Origin: a virus
Reading direction: 5' to 3' (one strand)
DNA length: 21,242 nucleotides
Virus record (IMG/VR): IMGVR_UViG_3300027712_001734
Coordinates: 1-21,242 of that record
Position 1 is the first letter of the stretch; each line of letters begins with the position of its first letter. Shown here piece after piece: positions 2 through 17,912 of the stretch. The position numbers were made by a program, and so were the translations under genes. The notes under the pieces were generated by a model. It was not told the origin of the DNA and did no database searches. It saw nothing but the letters and a program-made list of their open reading frames with translations.

Positions 2-3000
2 GGTCTATGTACGCTGTACTATAACACTTCTGGTAGTAATAACATAGCTATTGGTGGCTGTGCAATGCGTTTTACCTGCGCTGGCAATGATAACGTAGCC
101 CAGGGATATCAGGCTTTGTATTGTAACTCTTATGGTAATAATAACACAGCAATTGGAAAGAAATCTCTGTACGTCAACAGCTCTGGTTGTAATAACACAG
201 CTATTGGATATGGTGCACTCTGCGGAAATACCTCTGGTTCAAATAACACGGCTATAGGATGTCTTGCACTCGCCTGCAACACCACTGGTTCAAATAACAT
301 AGCTATAGGGCAAAGTGCACTTGCCTGCAACACCATTGGTTCAAATAACACAGCTATTGGCAATAACGCACTTTTTGCCAATACTACTGGCTCACATAAC
401 ATTGCATTTGGATGTCTCGCAATGAATAAAAATGTGTCAGGATGTCATAACTTTGCTCAAGGATATTATGCACTCTACTGCAACACTATTGGCAGTAACA
501 ACTTTGCTGTGGGATGTAATGCACTTAAATATAACACCACTGGTGTTAATAATACGGCTATAGGAGATTGGGCATTACGCAACAACTCTAGTGGAAATAA
601 TAACACGGCTATAGGATGTCTTGCACTCGCCTGCAACACCACTGGTTCAAATAACTTTGCTGTGGGATGTAATGCACTCAACTGCAACACTTACGGTAAT
701 AGTAACTTTGCCGTTGGATATCGTGCACTTTTCATCAACACCACTGGTTCAATTAACACAGCTATTGGATGTCAGGTACTCACCTGCAACACCATTGGAT
801 CTAGTAACTTTGCCGTTGGATATTTTGCACTCTATGGCAACACCGCTGGTTGTAATAACACTGCAATTGGATGTAATGCACTCCGCTGCAATACCATCGG
901 TATTAATAATATAGCCATTGGATATAGTGCACTATATTGCAATACCACTGGTTCAAATAACATAGCCATTGGACATGCAGCACTCGCCTGCAACACCACT
1001 GGCACAAATAACTTTGCAGTTGGATGTTTTGTACTTAAATGTAACTCTGGTGGATCTAATAACTTTGCTGTAGGCTACCAAGCTCTTGCTTTTAATACTA
1101 TTGCTGATAATAATACCGCTATTGGAATTAGTGCGCTGTTGTGCAATACCACTGGTGTTAGTAATACGGCTATTGGATATAGTGCACTATGCGCTAATAC
1201 ATCTGGATCAAATAATACGGCAATTGGATGTAATGCACTTAGATGTAACACCACTGGTAATAACAACACAGCAATTGGATTTAATGCACTCTACGGCAAC
1301 ACCACTGGCTCAAATAATTTTGCAGTTGGATGTTTTGCACTTAGATGTAACTCCGGTGGATCTAGTAACTTCTCTGTAGGCTACCAAGCTCTTGTTTTTA
1401 ATACTATTGCTGATAATAATACCGCTATTGGCAATTCTGCGCTGGTGTGCAATACCACTGGTGTTAATAATACGGCTATTGGATATAGTGCACTATACAC
1501 TAATACATCTGGATCAAACAATACGGCAATTGGATATCTTGCACTTAGATGTAACACCACTGGTTTAAATAACACAGCTATTGGATATGGTGCACTCTAC
1601 GGCAACACCATAGGCTTACATAACACAGCTATTGGGTGCAGTGCACTTAGATGTAACACCATTGGTTGTAGTAACACGGCTATAGGATATTTAGCACTTC
1701 GATCAAATTCAAGTGGCAACCATAATACTGCTATTGGAAATAATGCACTTTATACCAACACCACTGGCTCAAATAACACAGCTCAAGGATATCGGGCACT
1801 CTACGGCAACACCACCGGCTCAAATAACACGGCTCAGGGATATTGTGCACTTAGATATAATACCATTGGTAATAATAACGTTGCAATTGGATTTAGTGCA
1901 CTCTACTGCAACAGCAATACTGGCTCAAATAACACGGCCATTGGATGTTGTGCACTCTACAGCAATACTACTGGGTGTTCAAACATTGCTATAGGACAAC
2001 AAGCAATGCAGTGCAATTCTACCGGGTCTTTAAACATTGCTATAGGACAACAAGCAATGCAGTGTAACACTTTTGGAACTTATAACACTGCACTGGGATT
2101 CAAAGCTCTGTATGGTAACACTACAGGTAACAATAACGTTGCAATAGGATGGTGTTCGTTAGGAAACAACGCTGGTGGCCTAGCCAACACAGCTATAGGA
2201 AATACGGCGCTCCGCTGCAATACCATAGGTAATAATAATACGGCTATTGGATGTCTTGCACTCTCCAACAACACCTTTGGTTGCAATAACACAGCTTTTG
2301 GATTCAGTGCACTCGTCTGCAACACTACTGGTTCAAATAACACAGCTATTGGACATTGTGCACTCTACGGCAACACCACTGGCTCAGACAACATTGCAAT
2401 TGGATGTCTCGCAATGGCAGTTACTTCTGGTGCTAGTACAAGCAATGTTGCGCTTGGAACGCAAGCACTTCGATTTATCACCAATGGCACTAATAACGTT
2501 GCTATTGGATGTTTCGCACTTAAATGCAATGTTGGCGGAAATAATAACATAGGTATTGGAAACAATACACTTGCTGTAAGTTCTGGATCCAATAATGTAG
2601 CCGTTGGCGGCGGCACCCTTCAGAACAATACCACAGGTAATTTTAACATAGGTATCGGATACTGTGCACTCGCCTGCAACACCACTGGGTGTAGTAATAC
2701 AGCGATTGGTATATGCGCACTTTATTGTAATCAATTTGGTAACAATAATTTTGCTCAAGGGTATAGTGCCCTATGGGCTAATAGCAGCGGATGCAATAAC
2801 ATCGCAATTGGTGATCGAGCACTGTGCAGTAATACTTTTGGTTCATATAATTTTGCCGCAGGCCAGTTGGCTTTGCTGAAAAATACGTCTGGATGCAATA
2901 ACATTGCAATAGGGGTATGCGCACTTTATAACTCAAATTCAAGTACAACTAATAATGGAAATATTGCTATTGGTTGGCTTGCTGGTAGTGCCAACACCAG

Positions 3001-3100
3001 TGGTTACAACAATATCTTTATTGGTAATAATGCTCAGAACATAAACACCAGTAGCTGTAACCAAATTGTAATTGGTACTACTGCGTATGTTAGCCAATAT
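2..3100 (+). repeat. About 60 tandem 51-bp coding repeats
   Basis: The period is exactly 51 bp (17 codons), in frame throughout. A few units are irregular, for example an extra codon near 1910-1920 and altered units near 2410-2450 and 2570-2600. Copies differ by both synonymous and amino-acid changes. The most alike neighbours are the two units at 1986-2036 and 2037-2087 (both IAIGQQAMQCN). Confidence 0.95.
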
Positions 3101-3484
3101 GCACCTAGCGCAACTTGGACTGCAATTTCGGATGCACGTGACAAGACCAATATTGAAACTATTCCATTGGGTTTAGAATTCTTGAAAGAAGTTCGCCCAG
3201 TTAGGTTTACTTGGAATTTAAGAAATACAGATGATTCTCATCCACGTTTTGGAATGCCGGATAGTGGATTTATTGCTCAAGAACTAGCCGATACTGCTAA
3301 CAAATACGGAGTTAGTGAATGGCTTAAAGTTGCAACTGGCGAAGGTACTAATCAGATGTATGCAGATCCGGGAAGATTATTGCCAGTTACTATCAAGGCA
3401 GTTCAAGAATTGTCTGATTTAGTTGATACATTAACTGCTAGAGTAATAACACTTGAAGAAAAAATTCAGCAGCTTGGCGGGTAG
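2..3484 (+). CDS. Giant repeat tail fibre with C-terminal S74 chaperone domain (5' partial)
   Basis: The frame is open from base 2, so the gene begins before the window; the ATG at 65 is just a codon inside a repeat. About 1,030 residues are built of some 60 copies of a 17-residue unit of the type NNTAIGxxALxxNTTGS. This resembles the head repeats of YadA-type trimeric adhesins and of many phage tail fibres, which fold as left-handed beta-rolls. The last ~118 residues look like a Peptidase_S74 intramolecular chaperone: SDARDKTNI with Ser at 3128-3130 and Lys five residues on, then GFIAQE, then a heptad-like helix. In this family the domain helps the fibre trimerise and then cuts itself off before that Ser. 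The product is most likely a host-recognition or whisker-like fibre. Roughly half of the units have Cys in the same place (ALxCN), which is unusual. Fibre identity is secure; the receptor is unknown. Confidence 0.9.
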   Translation, partial: GLCTLYYNTSGSNNIAIGGCAMRFTCAGNDNVAQGYQALYCNSYGNNNTAIGKKSLYVNSSGCNNTAIGYGALCGNTSGSNNTAIGCLALACNTTGSNNIAIGQSALACNTIGSNNTAIGNNALFANTTGSHNIAFGCLAMNKNVSGCHNFAQGYYALYCNTIGSNNFAVGCNALKYNTTGVNNTAIGDWALRNNSSGNNNTAIGCLALACNTTGSNNFAVGCNALNCNTYGNSNFAVGYRALFINTTGSINTAIGCQVLTCNTIGSSNFAVGYFALYGNTAGCNNTAIGCNALRCNTIGINNIAIGYSALYCNTTGSNNIAIGHAALACNTTGTNNFAVGCFVLKCNSGGSNNFAVGYQALAFNTIADNNTAIGISALLCNTTGVSNTAIGYSALCANTSGSNNTAIGCNALRCNTTGNNNTAIGFNALYGNTTGSNNFAVGCFALRCNSGGSSNFSVGYQALVFNTIADNNTAIGNSALVCNTTGVNNTAIGYSALYTNTSGSNNTAIGYLALRCNTTGLNNTAIGYGALYGNTIGLHNTAIGCSALRCNTIGCSNTAIGYLALRSNSSGNHNTAIGNNALYTNTTGSNNTAQGYRALYGNTTGSNNTAQGYCALRYNTIGNNNVAIGFSALYCNSNTGSNNTAIGCCALYSNTTGCSNIAIGQQAMQCNSTGSLNIAIGQQAMQCNTFGTYNTALGFKALYGNTTGNNNVAIGWCSLGNNAGGLANTAIGNTALRCNTIGNNNTAIGCLALSNNTFGCNNTAFGFSALVCNTTGSNNTAIGHCALYGNTTGSDNIAIGCLAMAVTSGASTSNVALGTQALRFITNGTNNVAIGCFALKCNVGGNNNIGIGNNTLAVSSGSNNVAVGGGTLQNNTTGNFNIGIGYCALACNTTGCSNTAIGICALYCNQFGNNNFAQGYSALWANSSGCNNIAIGDRALCSNTFGSYNFAAGQLALLKNTSGCNNIAIGVCALYNSNSSTTNNGNIAIGWLAGSANTSGYNNIFIGNNAQNINTSSCNQIVIGTTAYVSQYAPSATWTAISDARDKTNIETIPLGLEFLKEVRPVRFTWNLRNTDDSHPRFGMPDSGFIAQELADTANKYGVSEWLKVATGEGTNQMYADPGRLLPVTIKAVQELSDLVDTLTARVITLEEKIQQLGG
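1019..1586 (+). repeat. Six-unit segmental duplication inside the fibre gene (306-bp offset)
   Basis: The stretch from about 1019 to 1280 recurs at about 1325 to 1586, offset by 306 bp, which is six 51-bp units. Both copies share an unusual unit, YQAL-(A/V)-FNTIADNN, followed by the same order of later units. That order is not found elsewhere in the array, so a block duplication is the simplest explanation. Confidence 0.8.
3128..3484 (+). other. S74 intramolecular chaperone domain and predicted self-cleavage site
   Basis: The region starts at Ser (TCG, 3128-3130) in the motif SDARDK. In known S74 domains this Ser and the Lys at +5 form the catalytic pair, and both are present. Cleavage would release a 118-residue chaperone ending in a coiled-coil-like segment (LTARVITLEEKIQQLGG). 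Cleavage itself is inferred from the family. Confidence 0.8.
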
Positions 3485-3492: not shown

Positions 3493-3517
3493 GTAGCACT
3501 TAACTATGTGCTATTAT
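3490..3517 (+). promoter_or_regulatory. Hairpin covering the start codon of the first glycosyltransferase gene
   Basis: Bases 3490-3499 pair with 3508-3517 in a 10-bp stem with one G-U pair and an 8-nt loop. The 3' arm includes the first two bases of the ATG at 3516. No T-run follows, so it is not a standard terminator. It could hide the start codon in read-through mRNA from the fibre gene. Confidence 0.5.
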
Positions 3518-4430
3518 GCGACCACTTGGCGGCTCTGAAATATTAAACAATAACCTTGTAAAATACACTGGACAAGATTGGCAAACCAATGTTAATCTTG
3601 TCCTAAGTGTCTGTGACTCTGCATTCATTGATCCTAATCGTGTAAATGTTATTTGGCAGCATCTTGCCTACGATCAAGGCGCAATTAGAGGAATGGCTGA
3701 CTCTAACTTTATACAAGCAATAGATCACTTTGTCTATGTTAGCAACTGGCAACGTCGACAGTTTGAAAATAGATTTGCAATAGATCTAAGCGAAAATCAC
3801 GTGATTCGTAATGCAATTGAGCACATTGAATTCAAAGAAAAACCAAACAATAAGATCAAACTAATCTATACATCTACACCCAATAGAGGCCTAGCGGTAT
3901 TATTACAAGCATTCAAGTTACTCAATCGAACAGATATAGAACTTACTGTATTTTCCAGCAATATAATCTACGGTAAAGGATACAGCAATCAACTTGCTGG
4001 GCAACACGACTACCTGTTCCACCAGTGTCGAACAACTCCGGGGATTGTCTACAGAGGTTATGCCACAAACAAGGCAGTAAGGCAAGCATTACAATCTAGT
4101 CATATCTTGGCCTATCCCAGCATATACGAAGAAACCAGTTGCCTGGCTGCAATAGAAGCAGGTGCAGCAGGATGTAAGATTGTTACTACCAACTTGGGTG
4201 CATTGCCTGAAACTTGTGCCAACTGGGCGACCTATGTTGACTACAAATATGGAGACAATTTAGATCTTTTGGCAGAAAGATATGCAGAAATATTGAATCA
4301 AGAAATTGACAATTATCAAAATACTTGTTATACTGTAAAAGACCAAAGTATTTGGTTCAATGAACAATATTCCTGGCACCAACGTGGTCAAGAATGGTTG
4401 GAATTTTTTAATAAAATATGCGTAAAGTAA
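3516..4430 (+). CDS. Glycosyltransferase, GT4-like (GT-B fold)
   Basis: Predicted retaining glycosyltransferase of the GT4/GT1 type, transferring a sugar from a nucleotide-activated donor in the cytoplasm. Visible signs are an N-terminal glycine loop GGSE (residues 5-8), a central FVYVSNWQRRQF segment (72-83), YTSTPNRGL (118-126), and the EX7E signature within EETSCLAAIEAGAAG (E206 and E214), followed by GALPET. At 304 residues it is short for GT4, and it starts almost at the glycine loop, so the usual first strand seems absent; a stop at 3501-3503 prevents a longer start in this frame. No clear Shine-Dalgarno site is seen. It is the first gene of the glycan cassette and overlaps the next gene by 13 bases. 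Sugar donor and acceptor are unknown. Confidence 0.82.
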   Translation: MRPLGGSEILNNNLVKYTGQDWQTNVNLVLSVCDSAFIDPNRVNVIWQHLAYDQGAIRGMADSNFIQAIDHFVYVSNWQRRQFENRFAIDLSENHVIRNAIEHIEFKEKPNNKIKLIYTSTPNRGLAVLLQAFKLLNRTDIELTVFSSNIIYGKGYSNQLAGQHDYLFHQCRTTPGIVYRGYATNKAVRQALQSSHILAYPSIYEETSCLAAIEAGAAGCKIVTTNLGALPETCANWATYVDYKYGDNLDLLAERYAEILNQEIDNYQNTCYTVKDQSIWFNEQYSWHQRGQEWLEFFNKICVK

Positions 4431-5146
4431 TGATTGGCACACCGTGCTATTCGGGTCAAGTTGATGTCTGGTATACCAATAGTTTGGTCAATACCATCAA
4501 ACAAAGTTATGCACACAATATAGCAATAACTCCAATGTGGGTCAGCTTTGATGCACTGATCCAACGTGCACGTAATGATACCGTGCATCTTGCTCTAGAA
4601 GGTGAGTTTGATGACTTGATTTGGATTGACAGTGATATTGAATGGGAACCTGAATGGTTTTTTAAACTACTTGATTATCCTGTGGATGTAGTTGGCGGTA
4701 CTTATCGTAAAAAAGGTGATCAAGAAGAATATGTGGTTCGACAGTTGGGAAAACATTCACGGAATCCTGCCACTGGCTTAATTGAAGTCAGTGGTCTAGG
4801 TACTGGTTTTTTACGTATGAATCGCAAGTCTATGCAGTATCTCTGGGATACAAATAAACCTTATATTGATAAAAAAGACAACAAAGAACGTAGAATGATT
4901 TTTGATGTTATTATTGCCAATAGTGATCTAATGAGCGAAGACATTTATGCATTACAAAAATTGATTGATGGTGGATTTAAGATATGGTTGGATCCAAGCA
5001 TGACTTGTAATCACATTGGTCCATATAAATTCAAAGGTGATTATTTTGCTTGGTCAAAGAATGGCAGCCCTGCCACTATTACTGCTCCTGCAATAGTGAA
5101 ATCTACTGCAAAAAAAATCCCAACTTTACCGCGCAGACAATTATGA
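4418..5146 (+). CDS. Glycosyltransferase, GT-A fold
   Basis: A 242-residue predicted glycosyltransferase. The key motif is a DxD triad in IWIDSDIEWEPEW (DSD at 71-73), which in GT-A enzymes binds the divalent metal and the nucleotide sugar. It is preceded by ALIQRARND (46-54) and followed by VVGGTYRKK and a GLGTGFLRM stretch, a layout seen in phage and giant-virus GT2-like proteins. There is no membrane segment or signal peptide, so it should act in the cytoplasm. Its ATG lies inside the end of the upstream glycosyltransferase gene (13-base overlap) and its stop overlaps the next start as ATGA, which implies translational coupling. The last ~20 residues are basic and rich in Lys and Pro. The exact family is uncertain. 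Confidence 0.7.
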   Translation: MRKVMIGTPCYSGQVDVWYTNSLVNTIKQSYAHNIAITPMWVSFDALIQRARNDTVHLALEGEFDDLIWIDSDIEWEPEWFFKLLDYPVDVVGGTYRKKGDQEEYVVRQLGKHSRNPATGLIEVSGLGTGFLRMNRKSMQYLWDTNKPYIDKKDNKERRMIFDVIIANSDLMSEDIYALQKLIDGGFKIWLDPSMTCNHIGPYKFKGDYFAWSKNGSPATITAPAIVKSTAKKIPTLPRRQL

Positions 5147-5943
5147 ACAAGAATTTTATCATGCTTTCCGGACTTCCCCGTTCTGGAAGCCAAGTATTAA
5201 GTTCAATGTTGAATCAACATCCTGAAATATATGCATCTACCACAAGCCCAGTGGCCGACCTTGTAGGCATTATTGGCGAACAATGGCCCGCGATTAGTCA
5301 AGCATTGATCGATCCTGATCCTAAACAATACAGCAATATCATGCTGGGCGCAATTGATGGTGCATACAAACACATTGATAAGAATACCATTGTTGATAAA
5401 AATAGATTATGGCCCAGATACGGTGCTATAACAAGAAAAACATTTGGATTCAAACCTCAAATCATTTGTACTGTTCGTAGTATTCCTGATATTCTAGCAT
5501 CTTATTGTTTGTTAATTGAACGTAATCGTGACAGAGTTACATTTGTTGATCAGGAGTTAATTGATTCAAGTTTGCCTGTCAATACTAAAAATCGCTGTAA
5601 GATATTATGGGAAAAATATATTACACATCCTTATAATAGTCTGCGTATGGGAGTTAATTCTGGCGATGTTGATATGCTATTTTTAGAATATAAGGATATT
5701 GTGGACAACGGTCAGGCAACTATTGATAAGATATGCAACTTTATCAACATTGATACTTTTGCATTGGATACAGGTAATCTACAACCCATGGATGAAAATG
5801 ATGTATTCCACGGAGGATTGGTTGGATTGCATGATGTAAGACCTATATTAAAGAAAGCAAGTCCTCCTCCCGAAGAAGTGATTGGCAGAGAGTTGACCAA
5901 CATGTATAGAAATATGCATTTAGAATTTTGGAGAAAGAAATAA
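5143..5943 (+). CDS. Sulfotransferase 1 (PAPS-dependent type)
   Basis: A 266-residue predicted sulfotransferase that would move a sulfuryl group from PAPS to a hydroxyl, probably on a sugar. The N-terminal SGLPRSGSQVL (9-19) is the PAPS-binding P-loop typical of the Sulfotransfer_3 family. IICTVRSIPDILAS (107-120) corresponds to the 3'-phosphate-binding segment, with R112 and S120 kept but Ser where many members have Asp. VDKNRLW near 85-90 fits the family's conserved Lys region. I chose the ATG at 5143 because it overlaps the previous stop as ATGA; a longer frame from 5050 would run through the upstream gene. It resembles the sulfotransferase at 10031 at its N terminus, so the two are probably paralogues. 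Confidence 0.82.
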   Translation: MNKNFIMLSGLPRSGSQVLSSMLNQHPEIYASTTSPVADLVGIIGEQWPAISQALIDPDPKQYSNIMLGAIDGAYKHIDKNTIVDKNRLWPRYGAITRKTFGFKPQIICTVRSIPDILASYCLLIERNRDRVTFVDQELIDSSLPVNTKNRCKILWEKYITHPYNSLRMGVNSGDVDMLFLEYKDIVDNGQATIDKICNFINIDTFALDTGNLQPMDENDVFHGGLVGLHDVRPILKKASPPPEEVIGRELTNMYRNMHLEFWRKK

Positions 5944-7349
5944 TGCAGAGCACAGTATATGCAATGATATCATGTAGATCGTCAGATCAATACACCAAGT
6001 CGGCAATCGATAGTTTTTTTAAAAATACCAAATTAACCAGCAACGATGTCTTTTATCTAATAGATAATGATGCAGTAGGCACCAATGCTCGCGCTAATAT
6101 CACAGTAATAGTAAACGCTCAACCACAGTCCTTTGCTAAAAATATAAATGACATTATCAAGATTGCACAAGGCCGAGATGTAGTAATACTGAATAATGAT
6201 ATTGAATTTACTCCTGGATGGAGTGAACCATTAAAAGGCTATAGAAATAGTATATTGATTCCATCATGTAATCAAACACACTCATACACCAGCAGTGATG
6301 GAGCATTGGTATTGAAAGATTCAATGACACTTGATGAGTTTGCTAATGATACTTATAGACTCAATGAAATTGTTAGGCATCATCGATCTTTAGTTAAAGG
6401 TTTTTATGAAACGGTATTGATGCCATTTTATGCATTTAGATTACCTGCAGATGTTTATAACAAGGTTGGATTGTTTAATGAAACATTTGGACCTGCTGGT
6501 GGCGAAGATGTTGATTATAGAATACGAGCCATACAACATGGGTTTAGTGTAAAGTATGTAGGCCAATCATACCTTTTACATTTCCATGGTAAATCTACCT
6601 GGAATGGTCCTGAACAAGAACAGGAATTTAAAGAAAGAAATCAGTTTTATTTTCAACGCTTTACAGATGTATGGGGGTCCGATCTAGCCAATATGCTACT
6701 CATTGGTGGTCATATGCAGCCTGTGGTTGAAAAGTATCAATTATATCCATTCTTACAATCTAAAAAAATAACAGATATGATAAAACAATTATTGTTTGTT
6801 AGAGAAGGAAATAGTATAGTGTCTCTAGAGCAAGTATCTGCTGATGGATTATTAGAATATGTTAGAAAATTGGGTAACAATCTTATTGGTTGTGAGTTAG
6901 GCGTATGTCTAGGTTATACGCTTAGGTATTTTTTAGACAGATCAACTGAAATTAAAAAAGTCTATGCAGTTGATGCATATGAACCTTACATGGATCATTG
7001 GGGAATGGTAACTCAAAATTTAGTTGATAGATGGAAAACCGGTGCTCACGCATTATTAGACTCTTATAGTAATCAAATAGAATGGTTGGAATTAGATTCT
7101 ATCAAGGCATCTGAGTATATTGCAGACAATGAGCTGGATTATATTTTTATTGATGGCGATCATAGTTATGATGCAGTGTCTAGAGATCTAAGACATTATT
7201 GGTCCAAGGTACGGCCTGGCGGAATATTTGCAGGACATGACTGGAATTTACCCGAAGTTAATCGTGCAGTAAATGATTTTAGAAAAGAGTTTGACATTGA
7301 TACTGAGATACATTACACTAGTAAACATGTTTGGTTTTGGTACAAATAA
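5943..7349 (+). CDS. Glycosyltransferase (GT2-like) fused to a class I methyltransferase
   Basis: A 468-residue two-domain enzyme. Residues 1-250 look like GT2: an ILNNDIEFTPGW motif (82-93, with NND in the DxD place) and GEDVDYRIRA (187-196), the acidic pair expected near the catalytic base. Residues 290-468 look like an SAM-dependent methyltransferase of the Methyltransf_24 type: GCELGVCLGYT (317-326) as the SAM loop, YAVDAYEP (341-348), FIDGDHSYDAV (402-412) and RPGGIFAGHDW (424-433). It may add a sugar and O-methylate it, or methylate the product of a neighbour. The ATG at 5943 overlaps the previous stop by one base and has GGAG nine bases upstream; a TTG at 5928 would add five residues and is less likely. 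Confidence 0.8.
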   Translation: MQSTVYAMISCRSSDQYTKSAIDSFFKNTKLTSNDVFYLIDNDAVGTNARANITVIVNAQPQSFAKNINDIIKIAQGRDVVILNNDIEFTPGWSEPLKGYRNSILIPSCNQTHSYTSSDGALVLKDSMTLDEFANDTYRLNEIVRHHRSLVKGFYETVLMPFYAFRLPADVYNKVGLFNETFGPAGGEDVDYRIRAIQHGFSVKYVGQSYLLHFHGKSTWNGPEQEQEFKERNQFYFQRFTDVWGSDLANMLLIGGHMQPVVEKYQLYPFLQSKKITDMIKQLLFVREGNSIVSLEQVSADGLLEYVRKLGNNLIGCELGVCLGYTLRYFLDRSTEIKKVYAVDAYEPYMDHWGMVTQNLVDRWKTGAHALLDSYSNQIEWLELDSIKASEYIADNELDYIFIDGDHSYDAVSRDLRHYWSKVRPGGIFAGHDWNLPEVNRAVNDFRKEFDIDTEIHYTSKHVWFWYK

Positions 7350-7380
7350 TCAAGATTTGTAGTACACTGATTATGGCTGT

Positions 7381-7388
7381 ATTAAATA
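7381..7388 (+). promoter_or_regulatory. Late-type promoter box ATTAAATA
   Basis: Lies in the only gap inside the glycan cassette (7350-7407), 19 nt before the next ATG. It shares the TAAATA core. The rest of the 58-nt gap shows no gene. Confidence 0.45.
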
Positions 7389-7407
7389 ACGTACAAAGGG
7401 TATATAG

Positions 7408-8337
7408 ATGAAAAAAGTTTTTTGGATCGACGGCGGTGCCGGTAGAGTTGTAGCAGCAATTCCGGCATTGCTAAAATATAATAGATTAAACCCTAACACC
7501 GACTGGGCAATTTTGATCGGCGCCTGGGATTTCTTTCTTTGGGGTATTCCAGAATTACAAGATCGTGCATACAACCTAGACACCAAAGGTGTGTTTGACA
7601 ATGTGGTTAAAGATGCAGATATAATCATTACGCCAGAACCATATCGTAACCCTGCTTACTTTAGACAAGAGATCAGTCTAGTACAGGCATTTGATAGAGA
7701 GATCAACAACACTACCGATCATAGTGATCTAGGTGTTCCATCATTGGTATTCAATAGACAAGAGCAATTGGTTGCTGAAAATACACTTAGTGATTTGAAA
7801 AATATGCAGAAGCGTCCTAAGAATGTAATTTTCCAACCATTTGGACGTGGAGCAAAACTTGATAGGGACTTAATTATTGATGAAGAAAGCCGTAGTCTTG
7901 GACAAAAAGATTATTTGTTTCTAGTCCGTAAGTTGTCTCAAAAATATAACATGGTATTCTTTGGAGAACCAGAATTTCAGCTCAAAGCAGATACGTTTGC
8001 TCAAAAATATACTTGTGACCTACGTCAATGGGGTGCATTGATTGCACAGGCAGATTACTTTATTGGTTGTGATTCAGTTGGACAACATCTTGCACGAGCA
8101 GTTGGCACACCGGGATCAGTAATTTTTGGAAGTACATTCCCAATTAATACAAGTTATCCTGATTATTTTAATTGCATTGACATGGGACGAATTAAGAAAT
8201 ATAGTCCTATTAGAATTGCTGGTCTTGATGTATCACTATCTAATCGTTTGAACGAAAACGCCATGAACTTTAGTGATGTAGAATTGAATACAATCTATAA
8301 TAGTATTGTAGCAGACATTGAAAGAAAAACAAAATAA
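7408..8337 (+). CDS. GT9-like (heptosyltransferase-fold) glycosyltransferase
   Basis: A 309-residue protein with a GT-B layout resembling GT9 (ADP-heptose:LPS heptosyltransferase) proteins. The N terminus has a glycine-rich strand-loop followed by an IPAL helix (WIDGGAGRVVAAIPALLKY, 6-24). The C-terminal half has FQPFGRGAK (142-150) and FIGCDSVGQHLARAVGTP (218-235), matching the donor-binding loop where GT9 proteins have a D-S/T-G-x-x-H-x-A-x-A pattern. It likely transfers a sugar in the cytoplasm. The start is preceded by AAGGG about seven bases upstream and follows a TAAATA promoter box. It shares one base (TAATG) with the carbamoyltransferase start, so the two are probably coupled. Fold-level assignment is moderate; substrate is unknown. 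Confidence 0.65.
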   Translation: MKKVFWIDGGAGRVVAAIPALLKYNRLNPNTDWAILIGAWDFFLWGIPELQDRAYNLDTKGVFDNVVKDADIIITPEPYRNPAYFRQEISLVQAFDREINNTTDHSDLGVPSLVFNRQEQLVAENTLSDLKNMQKRPKNVIFQPFGRGAKLDRDLIIDEESRSLGQKDYLFLVRKLSQKYNMVFFGEPEFQLKADTFAQKYTCDLRQWGALIAQADYFIGCDSVGQHLARAVGTPGSVIFGSTFPINTSYPDYFNCIDMGRIKKYSPIRIAGLDVSLSNRLNENAMNFSDVELNTIYNSIVADIERKTK

Positions 8338-10034
8338 TGACATATAGTATTTTAGCAATTAATCCAGGCCATAATGGATCTGCTGCATTGGTAGTAGATG
8401 GCACCGTTGTTTATTATTCAGAAGAAGAACGTCTGAGTAGGATGAAGTATGATGGTAATCCATTTAGAGCAATGATTCATGTATTGGTTAATCATCAAAT
8501 TGATGAACTAATAATAGGTGGAACAACTGATCAATTATCTCAATTGCCCTGGACTGGCGAAGATGCATACTCTGCTCTTGCGCGAAAGTTTAATCCAAAC
8601 GTTAAAATTACTAAACTTGGTGGATTACATCACTTGGGTCACGCTGCTAATACATTTTATGGATCCGGTTTTGATACTGCCGCAGCGGTCATTGTGGACG
8701 GTGCAGGATCATTTCATCAAGAACAGGTAAATGAAAACTTTGTAGTAGGTGGATTTGAAACTGAAACAATTTATCAATGCTCTTATCCACATGAATTTAA
8801 TGCCGTTTATAAGAGATATTCAAACGATCAATCTGCATACTATGACAATGGTATTCAAGAATTTGATAACAGTGTCACTATTACCAAAGCATACGAGGCA
8901 GTTAGTGACTATTTGGGCTTTGGCTTTATTGAAGCAGGTAAGACCATGGGGCTTGCACCATACGGATCACATGACGAAAATATTCCAGAGTTTTTTGTCA
9001 ACGGAAAAGGCAATAAGAACTTATTGATTCCTCGCTATCCAGCTGGCGCAAATATTGATGAAAATCGTAATCCTTATTTGAAGAGATTTATTGACCCTAA
9101 AGAATGGCATAACGATTTCAATCTTGTACGTGATGTAGATAAAAATCTTGCATTCCACGTTCAAGCAGCAGTTGAAGAACAGATGTATGATCTAATACAA
9201 AAGGCTGTTGATATTACTGGCGAAACAAATATAGTTATTTCTGGCGGTTTTGGCTTAAATTGTGTGGCAAATTACAAGTTTGTTAAACGTTTCCCCAACT
9301 TAACCTTCTATATTGACCCTATTGCGCACGACGGCGGCACTGCTATTGGACTTGCAAGATATGCATGGTTTGTTCATTCTCAAGAAACTATTCCATCTGC
9401 GTTAGACACTGTATATCTAAGTGCACCACCGGATTATAATCAACTAGCAGTAATTAAAAATAATAACCTCAATGCTGAAATTGTTGATGCAACTGCTGCT
9501 GATATTGCACAACTAATTGATCAAGGTAATATTGTTGCATTATTCCAAGGACGTGCAGAAGGTGGTCCACGTGCGTTGGGTAATCGTAGTATCTTGTTTG
9601 ATCCACGTAGAGCAGATGGTAAAGACTTTGTTAATCGTGTCAAACGTCGTGAATGGTTTCGCCCATTTGCAGGATCAGTTATGGAAGAACATGCCAACGA
9701 GTGGTTTGATATGGCAGGTATGCAGTCAAGTCCATTTATGATGTATGCTGTTGATGTTCGTAGTGACAAGGTTCAGCAAATTCCAGCAGTAACTCATGTA
9801 GATAATACTTGCAGAGTTCAAACAGTTAATCCAACACAGAACACTCATTACTACGAATTGATTAGCGAGTTTCAAAAGCTCACAGGTGTTCCTTTGTTAT
9901 TCAATACTAGTTTTAATCTTGCCGGCCAGCCGCTAGTTGAAACAATTTTTGATGCATTGGTTACATTGTTTAATAGTGATATTGAATATTTGTACTTACC
10001 TGATATTGGTCAACTTGTCAAGAAGAATAAATGA
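8337..10034 (+). CDS. O-carbamoyltransferase (NodU/CmcH family)
   Basis: A 565-residue, apparently full-length member of the NodU/CmcH/TobZ family. These enzymes make a carbamoyl-adenylate from carbamoyl phosphate and ATP, then carbamoylate a hydroxyl, usually on a sugar. The start ILAINPGHNGSAALVVDG (5-22) is the family's N-terminal signature. HHLGHA (98-103) supplies the metal-binding histidines and VDGAG (120-124) follows. Later come ISGGFGLNCVANYK (about 299-312) and EGGPRALGNRSIL (about 407-419), the strongest C-terminal signature, then a KRREWFRPFA segment. The gene overlaps the preceding stop by one base and the next start by four (ATGA). A glycan or a modified nucleoside is the likely acceptor; the sequence does not say which. 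Confidence 0.92.
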   Translation: MTYSILAINPGHNGSAALVVDGTVVYYSEEERLSRMKYDGNPFRAMIHVLVNHQIDELIIGGTTDQLSQLPWTGEDAYSALARKFNPNVKITKLGGLHHLGHAANTFYGSGFDTAAAVIVDGAGSFHQEQVNENFVVGGFETETIYQCSYPHEFNAVYKRYSNDQSAYYDNGIQEFDNSVTITKAYEAVSDYLGFGFIEAGKTMGLAPYGSHDENIPEFFVNGKGNKNLLIPRYPAGANIDENRNPYLKRFIDPKEWHNDFNLVRDVDKNLAFHVQAAVEEQMYDLIQKAVDITGETNIVISGGFGLNCVANYKFVKRFPNLTFYIDPIAHDGGTAIGLARYAWFVHSQETIPSALDTVYLSAPPDYNQLAVIKNNNLNAEIVDATAADIAQLIDQGNIVALFQGRAEGGPRALGNRSILFDPRRADGKDFVNRVKRREWFRPFAGSVMEEHANEWFDMAGMQSSPFMMYAVDVRSDKVQQIPAVTHVDNTCRVQTVNPTQNTHYYELISEFQKLTGVPLLFNTSFNLAGQPLVETIFDALVTLFNSDIEYLYLPDIGQLVKKNK

Positions 10035-10903
10035 ACAAAACATACCATTTTATATCTGGATTACCAAGATCGGGCTCAACACTTTTGAGCTCTATCTTGA
10101 AACAAAATCCTAGATTTACATCTGGCATTAGTGATCCTTTGAACTCTTATGCTCATAGTATCATACGTGATACAAATACCGCGGTAGGAATGGATGCCGC
10201 AGTATCTATAGAAAAACGTCGAGAACTTATTAGAGATATGTTTGACAGTTTTTATAAAAATGATAATGAAGTTTGTTTTAATACCAATAGAGGATGGACT
10301 GCTGATACTGCCTTATTAAAAGATCTGTTCCCTAATTTTAAAATGATTGTATGTCTCAGAGATGTACCATGGATATTGGATAGTTTTGAACAACTCAATG
10401 CTAAAAATCCATATACTATCAAGCCATTATACCATCATCAAGAATTGGGTAATGTGCATGATCGTTGTAGAATCCTAATGGGCGAAATGCCTAACTATGG
10501 AGGGTATGTTCATGGTCCATTGATCAATGTCCAACAGAGTATGTTTAGTAACGAAATTGGTCATATTTGTTATGTAGAATATGATAACTTAGTAAGAAAT
10601 CCCGAATCTGTATTGCGTCAAATATATACATTTCTAGGTGAAACATTGTATCAACACGACTTTGACAATGTTGAAGATACTTATGATGAATTTGATCAAC
10701 AGGCCAAAATAATAGGGCTACATACTGTGCGCAAAAAAGTTGAATATCAAGATCGACGTAGTATACTACCTGGGGAATTGTGGGACAAATATAGTCCCAT
10801 GAGTTTTTGGAAACAAAATTTTGATCAAAAGAAACAATTGAATTGGATCAATAGTTCATTACCTGCTAAACGATATATTCCTACCGTAAATAAACAACTA
10901 TAA
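10031..10903 (+). CDS. Sulfotransferase 2 (PAPS-dependent type)
   Basis: A 290-residue predicted sulfotransferase. FISGLPRSGSTLLSS (7-21) is an almost ideal PAPS P-loop, and MIVCLRDVPWILDSFE (105-120) has the R110-D111 and S118 arrangement of the 3'-phosphate-binding motif, more canonical than in the copy at 5143. The N terminus (MNK, then ISGLPRSGS) parallels the first sulfotransferase, so they are likely paralogues that have drifted to different acceptors. It starts within the carbamoyltransferase stop (ATGA) and ends the cassette; its TAA lies inside the strong late promoter of the next unit. No signal peptide or membrane anchor is seen, so sulfation would take place in the cytoplasm, unlike eukaryotic Golgi enzymes. 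Confidence 0.85.
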   Translation: MNKTYHFISGLPRSGSTLLSSILKQNPRFTSGISDPLNSYAHSIIRDTNTAVGMDAAVSIEKRRELIRDMFDSFYKNDNEVCFNTNRGWTADTALLKDLFPNFKMIVCLRDVPWILDSFEQLNAKNPYTIKPLYHHQELGNVHDRCRILMGEMPNYGGYVHGPLINVQQSMFSNEIGHICYVEYDNLVRNPESVLRQIYTFLGETLYQHDFDNVEDTYDEFDQQAKIIGLHTVRKKVEYQDRRSILPGELWDKYSPMSFWKQNFDQKKQLNWINSSLPAKRYIPTVNKQL

Positions 10904-10906
10904 ATA
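10899..10906 (+). promoter_or_regulatory. Late promoter TATAAATA
   Basis: A perfect match to the T4 late consensus, 25 nt before the ATG at 10932, with AAAGGAG six bases ahead of that ATG. It overlaps the stop codon of the second sulfotransferase gene. This is the best promoter in the window. Confidence 0.85.
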
Positions 10907-10931
10907 ATAGGCTATAACAAAGGAGACAACC

Positions 10932-11228
10932 ATGGCAACTATTCTAGATACTCAAGCACTTACTACTGAAATTGTTCTTTCAGAAAGACGTGTAACAACT
11001 GAGTTTGTTATTCGAGAAATTCACGAATCTGTTCGCAACAGATTTGTTCGCGCAGAGGTTGAACTCGGGCCATTCACAACTGAAACTTTTCCAAATGGCC
11101 GTACAGAAACTCGTGGTTCAAGTAACCGTGGAGTAACCGTATGGGAAAATGAAGCATATGATGCAGTACGTGACGTATGGCGCAATGAAGATCTAATAGA
11201 AAAAATTACAGAGATTTTAAACGGATAA
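10932..11228 (+). CDS. Small hypothetical late protein
   Basis: A 98-residue protein that I do not recognise. It is soluble-looking and charged, with no signal peptide, membrane segment or Cys. The first half has ERRVTTEFVIREIHESVRN; the middle has FVRAEVELGPFTTETFPNG followed by a Gly/Ser/Arg-rich turn and GVTVWENEAYDAVRD; a short helix closes it. The gene has the strongest expression signals here (TATAAATA and AAAGGAG), which suggests an abundant late product such as a small virion or assembly protein. Six bases separate it from the APS-kinase-like gene, which presumably shares its transcript. Confidence 0.75.
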   Translation: MATILDTQALTTEIVLSERRVTTEFVIREIHESVRNRFVRAEVELGPFTTETFPNGRTETRGSSNRGVTVWENEAYDAVRDVWRNEDLIEKITEILNG

Positions 11229-11234
11229 TTAAAC

Positions 11235-12092
11235 ATGCAAAAAATCCTAATCATGGGACTACCCGGTGCAGGTAAAACTTATCTTGCAACAGCATTAAAA
11301 AAATATTTAGAATCACACGGAGATCTTTTTAAAGTTAATCCTAGTAGATTGATGAATAACGAAGGTATCCCTTCAAGACAAGATCTATGTGTTCGTGTAG
11401 ATTGGTTCAATGCTGATGAAATTAGAAAGCGTTACAATGATTGGGATTTTAGCCGAGAAGGCCGTATCCGTCAAAGTTTACGTATGGCAGAATTTGCATT
11501 AAGGTCTTCGGGTGATTATGTTATCTGCGACTTTGTTGCACCATTAGTGGAAATGCGTAATAACTTCAAAGCAGATTGGACCATATGGGTAGACACTATT
11601 GAATCTGGTAGGTTTGACGATACCAATAAAGCATTTGTGCCACCTACTGTATATGACTTTAGAATTACTGAACAAGATGCAGAAAAGTGGGCAGAATTTA
11701 TTGGTGATCACATATTGGCAAATCGTCGTCGCCCTGTATTTGATTGGAAGAAAGAAACCGTTGAGCAACTTGGCAGATGGCAACCTTGGCATACAGGACA
11801 TCGTGCATTGTTTGATAGACTGATCCAACGTACTGGACAGGTATGTATTATGATTCGCGACTGCCAAGGATGGCAAGGTAGTAATCCGTTTGCTATTGAC
11901 CAAGTTAAAAACGCTATTAAAAGAGATCTTGATCCGTTGTATCAAGGGCAATATGAAATACTGGTAGTACCTAATATTACACATATAGGGTATGGCCGAG
12001 GTGTAGGATATACTATAGAAGAAGAAAAATTCGACGAATCTATTACAAGTATATCGGGAACTGCTATTAGAAAATCTATGGGATTAAAATAA
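11235..12092 (+). CDS. APS-kinase-like domain fused to HxGH nucleotidyltransferase
   Basis: A 285-residue bifunctional protein. Residues 1-120 look like adenylylsulfate kinase (CysC), which phosphorylates APS to PAPS: P-loop GLPGAGKT (8-15), then WFNADEIRKRYNDWDFS (57-73) in the place of the DGDNIR...LGFS motif, and a VICDFVAP strand (97-103) where CysC has its (T)AFISP loop. A ~25-residue insertion precedes the second motif. Residues 175-285 look like an HxGH nucleotidyltransferase: GRWQPWHTGHRALF (180-193) and ISGTAIRKS (273-281). ATP sulfurylase shares this fold and an ISGT-x-x-R motif, so the protein may mimic a PAPS synthetase; a NadM-like or cytidylyltransferase role is also possible. 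It probably feeds the two nearby sulfotransferases. The first domain could instead be another small-molecule kinase. Confidence 0.78.
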   Translation: MQKILIMGLPGAGKTYLATALKKYLESHGDLFKVNPSRLMNNEGIPSRQDLCVRVDWFNADEIRKRYNDWDFSREGRIRQSLRMAEFALRSSGDYVICDFVAPLVEMRNNFKADWTIWVDTIESGRFDDTNKAFVPPTVYDFRITEQDAEKWAEFIGDHILANRRRPVFDWKKETVEQLGRWQPWHTGHRALFDRLIQRTGQVCIMIRDCQGWQGSNPFAIDQVKNAIKRDLDPLYQGQYEILVVPNITHIGYGRGVGYTIEEEKFDESITSISGTAIRKSMGLK

Positions 12093-12100
12093 AATGGGGA

Positions 12101-12133
12101 AAACTAGATTAACTCCAACAGTAATTCTAGTTT
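12101..12133. terminator. Possible weak bidirectional terminator
   Basis: Bases 12101-12108 (AAACTAGA) pair with 12126-12133 (TCTAGTTT) across a 17-nt loop, at the meeting point of two convergent genes. The stem is AT-rich, the loop long and the T-runs short, and the hairpin overlaps the Nudix stop, so support is weak. Confidence 0.25.
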
Positions 12134-12544
12134 AGTTCGAATTGTTCGATTGCTGACACTATTCTTTACACCTTGATGCAATGGTCTAGGCCAGCAATCA
12201 ATGGCACACCAAGCATATCCACTGTGTTCTCCATTAAGCGTAGGAACAAATTCTCGATCAACTATCAACACATAGGTGTTATATTGGAAGTTTTGATCAT
12301 TACTAGTGAATAGTTCTAATGGTACTATTTTCTTTATGGTAGGTGTCTTACCTACTTCTTCCTGTATTTCTCTAGTCAGGGTATCAAGTGCAGTAACATC
12401 CCCTGGTTCTTTCTTACCACCAACTAGGCCCCAGGTACCAGCAGTTTTGCCCTGTGTGCGTAATAAAAACAAAAATCTCCCAGTGTCGCGAGACAGAAAT
12501 AATCCACCACTGCAAATTACTGTGTTTAAAGAATTAGACGCCAT
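12104..12544 (-). CDS. Nudix hydrolase
   Basis: A 146-residue Nudix-fold protein, expected to hydrolyse a nucleoside diphosphate linked to another group (such as a nucleotide sugar, dinucleotide or damaged NTP). The Nudix box runs at about 42-66: GGKKEPGD, then TREIQEEVGK with the essential REXXEE core intact (R58, E59, E62, E63). The spacing before that core has one more residue than usual and Asp replaces the common Glu of the GE pair. The leading strand (FLFLLRTQGKTAGTWGLVGG) is typical. It overlaps the gp15-like gene by 19 bases and is last in the minus-strand operon. Its place among virion genes is odd. A role in managing nucleotide sugars or PAPS by-products would fit, but that is a guess. 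Confidence 0.85.
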   Translation of the reverse strand: MASNSLNTVICSGGLFLSRDTGRFLFLLRTQGKTAGTWGLVGGKKEPGDVTALDTLTREIQEEVGKTPTIKKIVPLELFTSNDQNFQYNTYVLIVDREFVPTLNGEHSGYAWCAIDCWPRPLHQGVKNSVSNRTIRTKLELLLELI

Positions 12545-16954: not shown

Positions 16955-17620
16955 ATGATTGTAGGTTTTGTAGGATTGATTGGTGCTGGTAAAGATACCG
17001 CCGCAGATTACTTGGTTAATACACACGGATTTAGACGAGATAGTTTTGCCAACACATTGAAAGATGCTGTGGCCTGTGTGTTTGGATGGGATCGAACTCT
17101 GTTAGAAGGCCGCACAGCAGAAGCCCGTGCATGGAGAGAACAACCAGATACTTGGTGGTCAACTCGCCTGGGGCGATCAATCACACCGCGATGGGTTCTA
17201 CAGTACTGGGGCACAGATGTTCTTAGAATGAACTTCCATGATGATATTTGGATTGCTAGTTTAGAAAATAAAATGCGTAAAACTACCGATGATATTGTCA
17301 TTAGTGATGTGCGCTTTCCTAATGAAATTCAAGCTATTCATAATTCTGGTGGCATCGTAGTACGTATTAAACGTGGTAAGGATCCTGAATGGTTTGATTC
17401 AGCAGTTTCTTTCAATTACGGACCCGATGGCAATTCTACGTGGTCACTAAGTAAAATGCAATTAGAACGAATGAAAATTCATGCAAGCGAGTATTCTTGG
17501 GTAGGTGGCAATATTGATTATACTGTTTACAATGATACCACAATAGATGAACTGTTTGAACAGATTGAATCCCTAATTAAAAGTCAGGAGTTAGATCACC
17601 CTGTTTCCATGGCAGCTTGA
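16955..17620 (+). CDS. Deoxynucleoside monophosphate kinase (T4 gp1-like)
   Basis: A 221-residue P-loop kinase of the T4 gp1 type, which phosphorylates dNMPs to dNDPs for phage DNA synthesis, including modified nucleotides in T4. Motifs: GLIGAGKDTAADYL (7-20, Walker A), SFANTLKDAVACVFGW (30-45), VLQYWGTDVLRMNF (81-94) and VISDVRFPNEIQAI (115-128). T4 gp1 has 241 residues, so this is near full length. GGAGG lies six bases before the ATG, a strong ribosome site. Its 3' end overlaps the convergent zinc-ribbon gene by 44 bases. Because a dNMP kinase can accept modified bases, its presence is compatible with, but does not prove, DNA modification by this phage. Confidence 0.88.
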   Translation: MIVGFVGLIGAGKDTAADYLVNTHGFRRDSFANTLKDAVACVFGWDRTLLEGRTAEARAWREQPDTWWSTRLGRSITPRWVLQYWGTDVLRMNFHDDIWIASLENKMRKTTDDIVISDVRFPNEIQAIHNSGGIVVRIKRGKDPEWFDSAVSFNYGPDGNSTWSLSKMQLERMKIHASEYSWVGGNIDYTVYNDTTIDELFEQIESLIKSQELDHPVSMAA

Positions 17621-17912
17621 GTTTGTGCAGTATGCGTTGACAGTTGGCGCATACTGTTTTTAAGTTAGTGACTCGACAGTTTGTTGGATTACCATCTATA
17701 TTGTAAACATTAAACTGTTCAGCATATTTAGAAGTGTATCCACAGCGATCGCACACTGCTTTCTTCTTGTAGCCAGCAATGACCCATAGAGGTTTGCCTG
17801 TTCCCCTGTTCTTAGAACAATGATCACACCTTGATCTATAGAAAGGTTGTCCTTCTTTGTAGTAGTTGATTGCTACTGGTCTCTCACCACACGTCTTACA
17901 TAAATTTCTCAT
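17577..17912 (-). CDS. Zinc-ribbon HNH-like protein, possibly without nuclease activity
   Basis: A 111-residue protein with two Cys pairs at the front (C5-x2-C8 and C29-x2-C32) and two further on (C54-x2-C57 and C88-x2-C91), likely binding zinc. The middle, FNVYNIDGNPTNC (67-79) then NLKTVCANCQRILH (83-96), follows the HNH pattern seen in phage endonucleases, where the first part usually reads D/Y-H-x-D-G-N. Here the histidine is Asn71, so cleavage may be lost or may use another residue such as H96. The start has AGGG six bases upstream and a TTAAATA box 31 nt away. It overlaps the dNMP kinase gene tail to tail by 44 bases. A DNA-binding or structural role is possible. Confidence 0.72.
   Translation of the reverse strand: MRNLCKTCGERPVAINYYKEGQPFYRSRCDHCSKNRGTGKPLWVIAGYKKKAVCDRCGYTSKYAEQFNVYNIDGNPTNCRVTNLKTVCANCQRILHKLKLPWKQGDLTPDF

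Follow-up and report, generated by a model that had tools for sequence, protein, structure and literature searches.

Sulfate metabolism begins with ATP sulfurylase, of which to our knowledge only two kinds, Sat and CysDN, have been recognised. APS kinase, which acts on adenosine 5'-phosphosulfate (APS), makes 3'-phosphoadenosine 5'-phosphosulfate (PAPS), the compound used by sulfotransferases. In human PAPSS1/2 and in the Aquifex Sat-APS kinase, a single chain combines APS kinase with an adenylyltransferase. In Allochromatium vinosum, sat lies directly upstream of aprMBA and is co-transcribed with it (PMC3779200). Sulfotransferases have been reported in phages, with their function recorded as unclear (PMC10580990), and cysC, cysD and cysH are already known in viromes (PMC8066274). 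Here we describe KinNT, a fusion gene in a 21,242-base virus fragment from IMG/VR (IMGVR_UViG_3300027712_001734, the whole of which we call the window), whose N-terminal half resembles APS kinase (K) and whose C-terminal half (N) is a small adenylyltransferase. We consider it likely that N represents a third, unrecognised class of ATP sulfurylase outside the families of Sat and CysDN, the missing one of SAR11, which phages have fused to APS kinase for glycan sulfation.

The two domains of KinNT

The original prediction had pointed to an APS-kinase-like fusion at position 11235, and the analysis bears this out. KinNT matches APS_kinase (PF01583) with 31.6 bits (cut-off 21.1), and its structural model, with a mean confidence score (pLDDT) of 81, superposes best on APS kinases (Z ~17, root-mean-square deviation 2.3-2.4 over ~142 residues), PAPSS1 among them at Z ~17; unrelated kinases reach Z 14.8 and below, and each of the top 29 structural matches listed is an APS kinase or contains an APS-kinase domain. 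By profile and predicted fold, residues ~1-164 are thus an APS-kinase domain, and the kinase does not group with non-APS kinases, an outcome that the original prediction had named as speaking against it. The kinase residues include the P-loop GLPGAGKT, D61, R64, N68, F72 and R77. In the versions from the window, SAR11, SAR86 and a Stenotrophomonas phage, a short lid, GRFDDTN, replaces the long KGLY...GFTGID segment.

The word "fusion" was also right, and the second domain, which had been left without a name, can now be given one: residues ~164-285 form an adenylyltransferase with the fold of nicotinamide mononucleotide adenylyltransferase (NMNAT) and phosphopantetheine adenylyltransferase (PPAT). 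This domain was folded separately because the structural matches of the whole-protein model covered residues 1-165 only. Its own model (pLDDT 91) is that of a minimal adenylyltransferase of the NMNAT/PPAT fold (Z about 10.4-11.1), and its membership in the HxGH superfamily is borne out by both fold and motif. In the window, N carries GRWQPWHTGH, R208, YGRGVGY (with R255) and ISGTAIR (with R279); among 64 representatives of the family, the near-invariant residues are GRxQPxHxGH, R208, G254-R255-x-V257-G258-Y259 and S274-x-T276-x-I278-R279.

Three known enzymes invite comparison. N shares its fold and the (T/H)xGH adenylyltransferase motif with NadM (1f9a, 1m8g) and with PPAT/CoaD, but it falls far under the curated cut-offs: the window domain scores 23 bits against PRK01153 (cut-off 127) and 22 bits against TIGR01527 (cut-off 181), and the best NadM score among its relatives, ~55 bits, is still below them. 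It differs further in the family-specific Arg208 and YGRxVGY, and in being coupled to APS kinase and APS reductase instead of NAD genes. With the Sat of sat-aprMBA operons, N has in common a position upstream of aprMBA in SAR11, and its pattern YGRxVGY...SxTxIR, with GR and SxTxxR elements, resembles the Sat active-site motifs GRD and SGTxxR, to which it may correspond by motif and order; it differs in having about one third of the length of Sat and GRxQPxHxGH in place of QxRNPxHxxH. No Sat chain appears among the best 50 structural matches listed for N, a result compatible with a shared core. Finally, KinNT has its kinase and adenylyltransferase in the same order as PAPSS1/2, but it counts 285 residues against ~620 for PAPS synthetase, and its adenylyltransferase half is of the NMNAT/PPAT type and ~120 residues long. 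PAPS synthetase is defined as APS kinase plus a Sat-family sulfurylase; KinNT has the kinase, and its second half lies outside the Sat family. Judged by its domains, KinNT most likely works like a PAPS synthetase without being one by descent.

N beside APS kinase and APS reductase

The KinNT search patterns were matched by more than 600 IMG/VR stretches, and of 600 that were examined, 597 encode relatives. When bacterial and archaeal genomes were scanned with the family alignment, N turned up in SAR11, SAR86, Marinimicrobia, Bacteroidetes, Dadabacteria, Omnitrophota, Acidobacteria, bacteria of the candidate phyla radiation (CPR), Rhodospirillales and the haloarchaeon Halocatena. Pairs or fusions of the two domains, in either order, span phages, SAR11, SAR86, Bacteroidetes, CPR bacteria and a haloarchaeon. 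Separate K and N genes stand side by side in 40 cellular and 49 viral loci, whereas the two are fused in the order K-N in 12 cellular and 107 viral loci and in the order N-K in three cellular loci and one viral locus; the search used both domains, so that these counts favour pairs, and loci with N only or K only were returned as well. Several of the kinases concerned pass the apsK cut-off of 138.7 bits, both fused (L122, 200 bits; L131, 148 bits) and as standalone partners of N (L124, 285; L119, 261; L204, 168).

Sulfotransferases recur in this company. In a Flavobacteriales locus (L124), apsK and N are followed by further genes and then by CysQ, a flippase-like gene and two sulfotransferases, and in L108 an APS kinase-N fusion begins 5 nt after a sulfotransferase. 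They also lie near N in L122 (with a match below the family cut-off), L129, L130, L131, L204 and L209.

Some of these neighbourhoods hold further genes. Directly upstream of a K-N fusion from a CPR bacterium, a 623-residue protein (L122:3368-5236) combines a sulfotransferase-like part with a C-terminal NUDIX domain, and in a marine Bacteroidetes locus a different cytidylyltransferase-like gene (L121:8500-8898) is inserted between APS kinase and N. In 19 of 80 viral loci (L043:3288-4049, L013:9243-10004 and 17 others) the kinase fusion is closely preceded by a second nucleotidyltransferase, HldE-like and composed of CTP_transf_like and MannoseP_isomer/cupin domains.

Few cells in the sea are as abundant as SAR11 bacteria. 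Seven of their loci have a standalone N immediately before aprM-aprB-aprA, that is, in the position of sat, and the AprA encoded at the SAR11 N loci is certified by its profile (995 bits). Among 118 genomes of one SAR11 family, aprA occurs in 55, N in 59 and both in 47, and in 25 of these 47 the two genes share a strand, with N upstream of aprA by 1.4-4 kb; the co-occurrence gives a Fisher's p of 3e-13, a value inflated by the shared ancestry of these genomes. Canonical Sat was found in five of the 118 genomes. Among 45 N-bearing genomes Sat is present in three and missing from 42, and CysD exceeded its cut-off in none, with weak matches in three. According to published accounts, ATP sulfurylase is lacking in most SAR11 (PMC10356861), and Pelagibacter is described in the text of one paper as possessing AprBA and lacking sat and cysDNCHIJ, although cysC is listed in one of its tables (PMC5069961). 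Since APS is what APS kinase and APS reductase have in common, and the otherwise-missing enzyme is the one that connects APS with sulfate, we take N to be quite probably an ATP sulfurylase.

In SAR11 loci (L149, L157, L160, L162, L164, L165, L189 and L194), K and N, sometimes separated by other genes, stand among genes resembling those of glycine-betaine and methylamine catabolism, including those for a Rieske oxygenase, dimethylglycine dehydrogenase-like proteins and BHMT.

Sulfotransferases and the glycan cassette of the window

The window derives from a T4-like phage, as its tail sheath, sheath stabilizer, neck and deoxynucleoside monophosphate (dNMP) kinase genes indicate, and the phage is labelled freshwater-type. 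KinNT closes a co-directional run on the + strand that begins ~30 nt past a large fibre gene, amid structural genes. The features are as follows.

65-3484: large repeat fibre protein of 1,139 residues, with many near-identical NNTAIGxxAL-type repeats and an intramolecular-chaperone-like C-terminal end
3516-4430, +: GT4-type glycosyltransferase, first in the glycan cassette (Glycos_transf_1, 1.5e-12; phrog_2170), with a 13-nt overlap with the next gene
4418-5146, +: GT2-like glycosyltransferase (phrog_1574, 2.2e-24; Glycos_transf_2 weak)
5143-5943, +: sulfotransferase ST1 (Sulfotransfer_3, phrog_27463, PAPS-binding motifs)
5943-7349, +: GT2-like domain fused to a methyltransferase (Methyltransf_24, 2.1e-15)
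7408-8337, +: GT9 (heptosyltransferase-like) glycosyltransferase (family profile 5.4e-6; phrog_8954, 2.3e-83)
8337-10034, +: NodU/CmcH-type carbamoyltransferase (profiles 1.3e-62 and 2.6e-21; phrog_1601)
10031-10903, +: sulfotransferase ST2 (Sulfotransfer_3, phrog_27463, PAPS-binding motifs)
10932-11228, +: open reading frame of 98 residues, retained by the closest relatives, with 39-73% identical copies in related loci
11235-12092, +: fusion gene KinNT, 285 residues, kinase plus N
11235-11726, +: APS-kinase domain of KinNT, N-terminal half, residues ~1-164 (APS_kinase profile, fold)
11727-12089, +: NMNAT/PPAT-fold adenylyltransferase domain N, C-terminal half, residues 165-285 (profile, fold, motifs)

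From 3516 to 10903 the genes overlap or abut (gaps of -13, -4, -1, +58, -1 and -4 nt), and the 98-residue reading frame, for which family profile searches gave no match, is separated by 28 nt from ST2 and by 6 nt from the kinase fusion. The two sulfotransferases and the fusion gene do lie within 7 kb on one strand, all three on +, as originally described.

ST1 scores 38.8 bits (1.6e-9) against Sulfotransfer_3 (PF13469) and 32.8 bits against PF00685, and ST2 scores 61 bits (2.5e-16) and 34.4 bits, respectively, all above the cut-offs of 27 and 22. Both have phrog_27463 as their home family and are 27% identical to each other. In ST1, numbered from one codon upstream of its ATG, the 5'-phosphosulfate-binding loop LPRSGS occupies residues 12-17 and the 3'-phosphate-binding residues are Arg113 and Ser121; in ST2 the loop LPRSGST occupies residues 11-17, followed by Arg110 and Ser118 and a conserved His231. 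In an alignment of 85 proteins, conservation of the arginine and serine (R113/S121 and R110/S118) is 100% and 94%. A search of PDB sequences with ST2 alone gave weak matches, partly due to chance, so that the family assignment rests on Pfam and the motifs. On that basis ST1 and ST2 are real members of the PAPS-dependent sulfotransferase family with conserved PAPS-binding residues, as had been predicted for both genes.

The original prediction held that a phage with its own donor supply that sulfates a glycan would be unusual. Phage sulfotransferases as such had been reported before; no report of a phage PAPS synthase, or of an NMNAT-type or NMNAT-like ATP sulfurylase, was found in the open-access literature. 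The sulfotransferases of the cyanophages S-SKS1, S-SRM01 and S-SCSM1 and of marine OM43 phages likewise belong to PF13469 and are 27-37% identical to ST1 and ST2, but the window has two copies, placed inside a glycan cassette. When the lists of relatives were compared, no relative of KinNT was found in the records of the three cyanophages.

Of 138 dereplicated viral loci with K/N (1,137 kb), 41 have a sulfotransferase gene no more than 5 kb away from K/N (43 such genes in all), against none of 59 control loci without K/N around the tail sheath gene (373 kb) and none of 72 around the capsid gene (564 kb). Because these controls sit among structural genes, a placement test within records was added: in the 15 records having both, sulfotransferases are nearer to K/N than expected by chance (combined p 8e-4). 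In some loci the sulfotransferase gene overlaps K/N (L009, L242 and L267), and a sulfotransferase above the cut-off was found in 13 of 37 whole records with K/N.

At another locus, two small P-loop proteins encoded ahead of the kinase fusion (L017:9369-9995 and L017:8081-8710) have the look of very divergent sulfotransferases, one with a weak PF13469 match and the other with none. For this reason the sulfotransferase counts may be low.

Outside the run, a NUDIX hydrolase gene (12104-12544, - strand) lies right past the fusion gene on the opposite strand and is kept in the closest relatives, and an HNH endonuclease gene (17577-17912, - strand) overlaps the end of the dNMP kinase gene, also on the opposite strand. 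Neither the Rfam nor the tRNA scan gave a match in the window, and a promoter scan gave as many sites as in shuffled sequence.

Proposed pathway and competing explanations

Computation shows the families and folds of the domains, the residues for PAPS binding, the coupling of the genes, the placement of N before aprMBA in SAR11, like that of sat elsewhere, and the scarcity of Sat and CysD in N-bearing genomes; the pathway that we propose on this basis is the following. N would join ATP and sulfate into APS and pyrophosphate, which would make it an ATP sulfurylase with an NMNAT/PPAT scaffold. The APS-kinase half would phosphorylate APS to PAPS; as the second half probably makes APS, KinNT would run from sulfate to PAPS, and its forming PAPS is nearly as probable as the sulfurylase reaction of N. 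ST1 and ST2 would then spend this PAPS, a step we hold to be likely, if slightly less so, to sulfate a glycan made by the cassette's glycosyl-, methyl- and carbamoyltransferases. A glycan is the likely substrate because both sulfotransferases sit inside a glycosyltransferase/carbamoyltransferase operon. The sulfated glycan may be borne on a virion surface protein, for which the fibre encoded at 65-3484 is a candidate acceptor; this is the weakest step, and we give the virion about an even chance of being the target. Taken as a whole, PAPS synthesis by KinNT followed by sulfation of the cassette glycan, probably on the virion, is the best explanation and a likely one. The activity is of a known kind and would be performed by a new protein family. 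The idea that the phage carries its own PAPS supply beside its sulfotransferases is supported by the grouping of the kinase, by the PAPS-binding residues and by the recurrence of the arrangement in unrelated phages and cells.

Several observations weigh against this proposal. The window kinase is divergent, with 23 bits against the TIGR00455 apsK equivalog (cut-off 138.7), and its lid is shortened; as that cut-off is not reached, we call it APS-kinase-like and not a certified CysC. The nearest solved relatives of N by profile are archaeal NMNATs (1f9a, 1e-11), profile searches gave no match of N to the Sat family (PF01747), and GRxQP stands where Sat has QxRN. In the SAR11 family, besides the shared ancestry behind the co-occurrence, eight genomes with aprA lack N and 12 with N lack aprA, several of which may be incomplete, and SAR11 HTCC9565 (G086) carries N together with a 344-residue Sat-like protein. 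In phage Bhz60 the kinase fusion gene lies beside a NADAR protein. No sulfotransferase was detected within 5 kb in 97 of the 138 viral K/N loci, and 124 neighbour proteins from such loci gave just three matches to Sulfotransfer_3, all weak, which indicates that many K/N phages are truly without a close sulfotransferase. Conversely, 14 of 16 records seeded with a sulfotransferase, many of them fragments, have no N domain. These counts speak against a strict reading of the module in the original prediction, in that many phages carry one kind of gene and lack the other. Hosts can supply PAPS.

HTCC9565 also offers a natural test case of redundancy, though the literature describes Pelagibacter as being without sat (PMC5069961).

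Among the competing explanations, two retain some weight. KinNT might make PAPS as a general auxiliary metabolic gene for host sulfate assimilation, with the nearby sulfotransferases incidental; the majority of viral K/N loci without a sulfotransferase nearby, the other metabolic genes that several of these phages hold and the cys genes known from viromes (PMC8066274) all suit this idea, but it sits poorly with the strong enrichment of sulfotransferases near K/N, sometimes in overlapping genes, against 0 of 131 control loci, and we regard it as possible but doubtful. Equally tentative is the suggestion that a glycan or lipid of the host surface is sulfated, for example to block superinfection, instead of a virion glycan. 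Cassettes with carbamoyl- and methyltransferases can generally alter host polysaccharides, and the virion acceptor is still only a candidate, but the run begins just past the fibre gene, among structural genes, which argues for the virion.

A role of the fusion in nucleotide or NAD metabolism, unconnected with sulfation, in which a kinase and an NMN adenylyltransferase would be paired as in NadR, appears improbable. The closest solved relatives of N are NMN adenylyltransferases and its fold matches NMNAT and PPAT, the gene follows the NADAR protein in Bhz60, and NadM-type genes occur in many T4-like phages; the kinase, however, is an APS kinase and not a ribosylnicotinamide kinase, NadM models give 20-55 bits against cut-offs of 127-181, and N occurs within the aprMBA operon and near sulfotransferases. 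A reading of the kinase fusion as unrelated to sulfation, suggested by its NMNAT-like C-terminus and the NADAR neighbour, had been considered and was dropped, since distant relatives are clean APS kinases beside sulfotransferases and N precedes aprMBA. Slightly less probable still is that N is another type of sulfurylase, such as an ADP sulfurylase (APS:phosphate adenylyltransferase), in which case ATP would not be the starting substrate of the phage enzyme: the same neighbourhoods would suit any enzyme that makes or consumes APS, but ATP is the adenylyl donor for enzymes of the NMNAT/PPAT fold and ADP sulfurylases run toward APS breakdown.

If N is the ATP sulfurylase that we propose, this third class would supply in SAR11 the step between AprBA and sulfate that has been listed as missing (PMC5069961, PMC10356861). 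The fusions of N with APS kinase, present in hundreds of phage contigs, would mean that phages bear the cost of their sulfate donor themselves, and the phage sulfotransferases would gain a testable role.

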